Source of the DNA: Toxonevra muliebris
Lineage: Eukaryota > Arthropoda > Insecta > Diptera > Pallopteridae
Assembly: GCA_963691655.1 (NCBI GenBank)
Contig: OY829327.1
Location: 60,214,079 to 60,278,078 of the forward strand
Length of the DNA: 64,000 nucleotides
Direction of reading: 5' to 3'
Shown: piece after piece, positions 30,358-58,077 of the stretch
Numbering within the stretch: position 1 is the stretch's first letter
How the letters are laid out: every line of letters begins with the position of its first letter
Notes under the pieces: model-generated
The model's database searches: none
What the model saw: only the letters and a program-made list of their open reading frames with translations
Told to the model about the DNA's origin: nothing
Translations under genes and position numbers: made by a program

Positions 30358-30676
30358 ATGTCACAATTGCGAAAATCGTCTTCCTTCCGTTCAAGGATTC
30401 CAGTAAGACGTAGAAAACAAACACAACGTCGTTTTTTCAATCCACGTTGTGGTTTTCAAGAAGACTCTGAATATTCTTACTATGCTGATGATAATTTCAA
30501 ACTGAGAACGAATAAAAGTTTCGCTTTCGAAAACCAGCAAAGAAGTAACAGTCAAAAGCATCTTCATTTTAATCAAAATAATTCAAATTGTTCCAGTTAC
30601 GCAAGTGATAGACGATATTCATCATCATATTCAAGCAGTGATGAAAGCAGTGAATCGGAGAGTCCACTTCAGGAAA
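30358..30676 (+). CDS. NLR-like gene, exon 1 (start)
   Basis: Starts MSQLRKSSSFRSRIPVRRRK: basic and Arg/Ser-rich, then a Ser/Glu-rich acidic tract (SSYSSSDESSESESPLQE) that resembles casein-kinase-2 substrates. An in-frame stop at 30313 lies upstream, so this ATG is the first in frame on the genomic strand. The donor GAAA|GTATTT leaves one base of a codon, which exon 2 completes. An upstream 5' UTR exon ending at the acceptor ATTTCAG near 30285 is possible. Confidence 0.7.

Positions 30677-58077: not shown

Follow-up and report, generated by a model that had tools for sequence, protein, structure and literature searches.

Drosophila melanogaster and Caenorhabditis elegans do not have NLRs, and various arthropods do not have bona fide ones, according to the available part of PMC7308585. 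The accessible text of PMC11508797 also gives NLRs as absent from D. melanogaster, and describes an arthropod (shrimp) NLR without an N-terminal domain and a shrimp NLRC without a CARD. Proteins named 'LRR and NACHT domain containing' are listed for Ixodes and NLR-containing sequences for a termite transcriptome, in the available portions of PMC4141456 and PMC3712931, respectively. Insect NACHT-WD proteins (e.g., AAEL005720, in the part of PMC10811912 available to us) provide a dipteran NACHT, although, judged by name only, they have WD repeats and not LRRs. Here we describe a gene in a 64,000-nucleotide stretch of the fly Toxonevra muliebris (contig OY829327.1, positions 60,214,079 to 60,278,078, forward strand; hereafter, the window). 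The gene has dipteran orthologues and a predicted NLR fold, has ECPxW in place of the Walker A motif, and appears to encode a nucleotide-independent scaffold rather than an ATP-switched sensor. We give this reading, taken as a whole, a probability of roughly 0.6. The shrimp protein LvNLRC (1485 aa) is similar in having an N-terminal region of unassigned type, a NACHT domain and LRRs, but the working model in the available text of PMC12370184 invokes NACHT ATPase activity; the two proteins are compared here by layout only.

The gene is conserved widely across Diptera. Three overlapping searches gave 95 homologous proteins in all: 84 with the last 1181 residues of the window protein, 32 with the full-length protein (residues 740-2028), and 19 with a profile (A2). 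They comprise 31 named dipterans, 14 named non-dipterans (six Orthoptera, three mayflies, one damselfly, one stick insect and three thrips) and 50 rows without a species name. The 32 named Diptera referred to below are the window protein and the 31 named dipteran homologues, many of which are from mosquitoes and are not independent. In the named dipterans, the last 1181 residues are 55-84% identical over most of their length at a reported E of 0, so chance is excluded. We assign their genera to Diopsidae, Glossinidae, Calliphoridae, Phoridae, Syrphidae, mosquitoes, sandflies and a sciarid. The name 'NACHT domain-containing protein' is already attached to several of the mosquito and sandfly proteins. 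Grasshoppers, thrips and a mayfly are 30-32% identical to the same region, and this is also the level for the three proteins measured against the window from among the orthopteran, mayfly, damselfly and stick-insect homologues (P0080, P0081 and P0087). No protein named as Drosophila, tephritid or Musca, or as Hymenoptera, Lepidoptera or Coleoptera, is among the 95 homologues, but, with 50 of the 95 rows unnamed, this does not show absence, and we make no claim of gene loss in Drosophila or in the other orders.

The window gene very likely encodes an NLR-type protein with a predicted NACHT and C-terminal LRR fold. A structure predicted for a homologue with 62% identity (the model compared is that of the homologue and not of the window protein) matches NLRC4, NLRP3, NLRP9 and NOD2 over the NACHT and the LRRs. 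The likeness to these vertebrate NLRs includes the predicted NACHT, helical and LRR architecture across the whole aligned part, and Walker B, at 12-18% identity in the structural alignments. In contrast to them, the fly protein has no Walker A loop, has no CARD, PYD or BIR that we could find, and has a low-complexity N-terminus of ~740 residues and a disordered loop of ~100 residues within the LRRs. As metazoan NLRs are defined (in the accessible text of PMC11508797), the central NACHT and the C-terminal series of LRRs are present; the effector domain of the classical three-part form (CARD, PYD, Death or BIR) was not found at the N-terminus. NACHT was the only Pfam family to match the 2028 residues at E up to 1, and searching the PDB with one sequence at a time was unproductive. 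By itself the window protein is below the Pfam NACHT cut-off, and none of 21 candidates from a six-frame Pfam NACHT search of the genome it comes from reached E <= 0.001, as expected of a NACHT domain that is split and degenerate. An earlier note, made from the DNA alone, had proposed a NACHT-like core and a C-terminal LRR solenoid; both are backed by homology and by the predicted fold of the homologue, and the comparison with NLR structures and the search for dipteran orthologues that it suggested gave the four matches above and proteins from mosquitoes, sandflies and several higher-fly families. The block that the note called P-loop-like is also there, but it is not an intact P-loop: its sequence is the degenerate ECPPWASRD.

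The two motifs of the nucleotide pocket are at these positions:

53347 to 53373, plus strand: degenerate Walker A, ECPPWASRD (residues 928-936; EGxPGSGKT in mayflies and orthopterans)
54700 to 54723, plus strand: Walker B, KLLIILDG (residues 1011-1018)

The homologues from Orthoptera, Ephemeroptera, Odonata and Phasmatodea (e.g., P0087, P0090 and P0094) share the NACHT, the LRRs and the SLPR/TLPR loop with the dipteran proteins. They differ in that all 11 of these mayfly, damselfly, orthopteran and stick-insect proteins have an intact EGxPGSGKT after NACHT strand 1, and the four of these that were scanned pass the Pfam NACHT cut-off. The three thrips, counted separately, read EAGPAMGKT, in which the first Gly is lost and GKT is kept. 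None of the 32 named Diptera has the GxxxxGK[ST] that defines Walker A in STAND and other P-loop NTPases, and all three P-loop glycines are replaced in every one of them. The position of the Walker A Lys is Arg in 28, His in three and Ser in one, and the Thr/Ser position is also variable (S 24, G 5, D 1, K 1, N 1). ECPxW itself is invariant (32/32). Because its E, C, P and W have a most-common-residue frequency of 1.00, compared to means of 0.81 in the NACHT core and 0.83 in the aligned protein, ECPxW looks like a replaced motif under a new constraint and not a decaying one, with the proviso that many of the 32 rows are mosquitoes. The invariance is limited to the named rows because the unnamed ones vary. 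Sixteen of the 50 unnamed homologues cover all nine letters of the loop; none is intact, yet they are more varied than the named rows (P0030 ECSQW, P0042 ECAHW, P0050 DSPPW, P0057 ECAAY, P0078 and P0079 ESPTW, and DCPxW in four rows).

Other residues of the pocket have fared differently. Walker B has the expected hhhhD pattern (LLIILDG), with the Asp and Gly kept in 32/32 named Diptera; variants in unnamed rows are LEG (P0028), LTG (P0057 and P0064) and DT (P0076 and P0077), and the motif is lost in P0078 and P0079. The Pro aligned with the TPL of NLRC4, which we take to be the adenine-contacting residue, is kept in 13 of the 14 named non-dipterans but has drifted in the named Diptera, where this position is P in 7, S in 13 and T in 12.

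A single event could account for the change in Walker A. We made a tree of 34 hand-chosen rows of 96 (the window model and the 95 homologues), with the loop columns excluded, and drew it from a midpoint root. The 23 rows lacking the loop are on one side of a branch with a support of 100, and therefore one change on the tree suffices; the tree's own check flagged long branches and uneven composition. NACHT domains usually have an intact P-loop. Because this is the usual state, we read the change as a loss, which probably occurred in the dipteran stem.

The disordered loop within the LRRs contains two further motifs that are invariant in the 32 named Diptera:

56470 to 56490, plus strand: FSSLPRG (residues 1580-1586)
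56515 to 56544, plus strand: GRSATLPRQP (residues 1595-1604)

FSSLPRG is whole in 46/50 unnamed rows, 3/3 thrips and 6/11 other insects, and GRSATLPRQP in 19/50, 0/3 and 0/11, respectively. The shorter SLPR is found in 3/3 thrips and 10/11 other insects, and ATLPR in 3/3 and 8/11. Among named rows, the exact form RSATLP is found only in dipterans.

We propose that the dipteran NACHT no longer binds ATP, and that ECPxW might stabilize a fixed conformation of the NACHT or a surface for a partner. The face of the LRRs would bind a client. The loop within the LRRs (FSSLPRG, RSATLPRQP) could be a phosphorylation-dependent docking site, e.g., for 14-3-3, because RSATLP fits what we understand to be the mode-1 14-3-3 consensus, and such a docking loop would replace the ATP switch as the control point. 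Our first guess is that the scaffold would act as a brake on innate immune signalling, by analogy with LvNLRC, which is the nearest studied arthropod protein of this layout that we found, and which binds STING and damps an antiviral response. We also speculate, more tentatively and with doubts that exceed our confidence, that an ancient insect NACHT-LRR receptor had its ATP switch dismantled in the dipteran stem and came to use a fixed Cys-Pro-x-Trp and phospho-docking via a loop inserted into the LRRs instead, possibly with redox or metal sensing through the invariant Cys. Its retention in mosquitoes, sandflies and higher flies would then span ~250 million years.

If mosquitoes, sandflies, tsetse and other flies share a conserved NACHT-LRR gene, the published picture of D. 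melanogaster without NLRs and of various arthropods without bona fide ones would be altered, and disease vectors would offer a target for knock-out. With the rest of the protein kept, loss of the P-loop is a natural experiment on the purpose of the ATP switch of NLRs. If the more tentative version is true, there is a principle of NLR signalling without ATP, missed as flies were called NLR-free from Drosophila.

Several observations weigh against the main reading. The NACHT link depends on the older insect homologues together with a predicted structure: a profile made from Diptera only (A4) matched no NLR in the PDB (13 matches that look like low complexity, the best with an E of 0.019), and therefore the dipteran proteins cannot be linked to NLRs by sequence alone. 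When seven homologues were scanned singly against the Pfam NACHT cut-off, dipteran P0034 (21.8 bits) failed, and the unnamed P0078 had no Pfam NACHT match. The homologue whose structure was predicted has Glu in place of the Walker B Asp (LEG). For the pocket, the change from Lys to Arg in 28/32 named Diptera is a mild one at that position, the unnamed metagenomic P0032, P0033, P0035 and P0045 keep the Walker A Lys, unnamed P0042 keeps the third P-loop Gly, and the TPL Pro is still present in the window protein. With the Walker B Asp retained in all 32, weak or unusual nucleotide binding is still conceivable. Lastly, the scaffold, docking and brake roles are ones that we infer.

Of the alternatives, the one that fares best is a sharper version of the scaffold, in which the protein is a STING-binding brake on antiviral signalling and does in Diptera what LvNLRC does in shrimp and NLRC3 in mammals. 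The layouts are alike, the NACHT of LvNLRC binds LvSTING, and knock-down of LvNLRC raises Vago5 (in the available text of PMC12370184), but the release step proposed for LvNLRC uses a NACHT ATPase activity that the dipteran protein probably lacks. The Aedes orthologue AAEL007079 (P0011) is listed at 1 day only in the supernatant of dengue-infected Aag2 cells (Table 1 in the part of PMC6478881 available to us), a list so rich in intracellular proteins that it is weak evidence. This one line of a mass-spectrometry table is the sole mention that we found of the orthologue names AGAP013057 and AAEL007079, and the evidence that the gene is expressed, which consists of this listing, is thin. The open literature that we searched contained no functional study of the gene, and the available parts of PMC3219725, PMC7711483 and PMC5041008 contain nothing on it. 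We regard the STING-binding brake as unlikely.

Slightly less likely again is that the protein is still an NLR switched by ATP and ADP, with the Arg or His in place of Lys and Walker B together holding the nucleotide in a classic oligomerizing sensor. The invariant Walker B Asp, the Arg in 28/32 named Diptera and the predicted integrity of the NACHT fold are as this would have it. However, the three P-loop glycines are replaced, a Trp is present where the loop is normally small, the Thr/Ser position varies and the TPL Pro is kept in only 7/32; moreover, we found no effector domain at the N-terminus that an oligomer could bring together. An improbable alternative is a structural scaffold of the oocyte or embryo with no immune role, like mammalian NLRP2, NLRP5, NLRP7 and NLRP14 (subcortical maternal complex, cytoplasmic lattice). 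To judge by their titles, these maternal NLRPs are in many of the structural matches listed, one of which is a complex with 14-3-3 (8xi3), but a common fold shows no function. It is very unlikely that the model is an artefact, whether a pseudogene or a fusion of separate genes across transposon-bearing introns: even though introns 3, 4 and 5 are several kilobases each, intron 3 holds a reverse transcriptase open reading frame (ORF) and exons 1 and 2 meet one base out of step with Teleopsis, the window protein is 61% identical to one Teleopsis protein over residues 1-2028 and has no stop in those 2028 residues.

An independent rebuild from the DNA gave 13 exons on the plus strand (30358-58077) that encode 2028 residues in a single open frame, with GT-AG boundaries at each of the 12 introns. 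This is the same model as that of the earlier note. The exons are:

30358 to 30676, plus strand: exon 1 (residues 1-106; start MSQLRKSSSFRSRIPVRR)
30971 to 31078, plus strand: exon 2 (residues 107-142; contains the conserved short motif SLDGLLD, 31003-31023)
31134 to 31274, plus strand: exon 3 (residues 143-189)
36026 to 37692, plus strand: exon 4 (residues 190-745; Gln/Asn/Ser-rich, poorly conserved)
44814 to 44993, plus strand: exon 5 (residues 746-805)
52831 to 52956, plus strand: exon 6 (residues 806-847; conserved SGSYASLECPSPPGPP)
53022 to 53216, plus strand: exon 7 (residues 848-912; the NACHT region begins)
53302 to 53505, plus strand: exon 8 (residues 913-980; NACHT strand 1 and degenerate Walker A)
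54610 to 56311, plus strand: exon 9 (residues 981-1548; rest of the NACHT, helical region, first LRRs)
56375 to 56982, plus strand: exon 10 (residues 1548-1750; disordered loop within the LRR domain, and LRRs)
57042 to 57400, plus strand: exon 11 (residues 1751-1869; LRRs)
57469 to 57768, plus strand: exon 12 (residues 1870-1969; LRRs)
57900 to 58077, plus strand: exon 13 (residues 1970-2028 and stop codon)

The positions of the junctions were judged in an alignment of the window protein with eight homologues. Seven junctions lie from residue 848 onward, all in sequence that is strongly conserved and is interrupted, if at all, by short gaps in individual rows (mosquitoes have one additional residue at 848, Cochliomyia lacks two at 1548 and Glossina has a gap at 1870; Megaselia ends at 1970). 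The junction at 143 is also aligned in most rows. Around those at 190 and 746 the sequence aligns too poorly to speak for or against them. The junction at 806 hinges on exon 5, which may be a cassette exon, since Glossina has a counterpart (46/52 aligned residues identical) and the Teleopsis, Cochliomyia, Aedes and An. stephensi models have none that aligns. The exon 1/exon 2 junction is doubtful: the Teleopsis protein (KTVKQ...DDFMYV) fits the window's frame from 30937 and not from the modelled acceptor at 30971, and a start at 30937 is one base out of frame with the sole canonical exon-1 donor.

Exon 9 is found at a single locus in the 491-Mb assembly. Identity to Teleopsis is 460/566 aligned residues in exon 9 and 179/203 in exon 10, and 186/534 in exon 4, where the sequence is of low complexity and, judged by composition, likely disordered, in agreement with the disordered Gln/Asn/Ser-rich N-terminal half described in the note. 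A motif similar to the N-terminal one in exon 1 is found in Teleopsis, Glossina, syrphid and mosquito models. A motif like SLDGLLD (LxxLL-like) is found in 20/32 named Diptera, the other 12 models being without such an N-terminal part, in 1/3 thrips (SLNNILD) and in 1/11 other insects (a mayfly, SLNNLLD); its conservation is only suggestive.

The window also contains mobile elements. The reverse transcriptase ORF in intron 3 (34479-35834, plus strand; Pfam RVT_1, E 2.3e-27) is LINE-like and ends ~190 bp before exon 4. A 281-aa frame at 15809-16654 (minus strand) has no Pfam match at E 0.01 and by eye resembles a reverse transcriptase fragment. ORF pieces at 6951-8359 (plus strand), of which 7916-8359 matches integrase zinc-binding and integrase-core domains, are a retroelement fragment. 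Overlapping ORFs at 12249-12877 (minus strand), one with HTH_23 and a weak match to a Tc3-type transposase, are likely a Tc1-like remnant, and two adjoining ORFs at 20667-21731 (minus strand), with DDE_3 and helix-turn-helix matches, are likely a fragmented transposon of the Tc1/mariner type.
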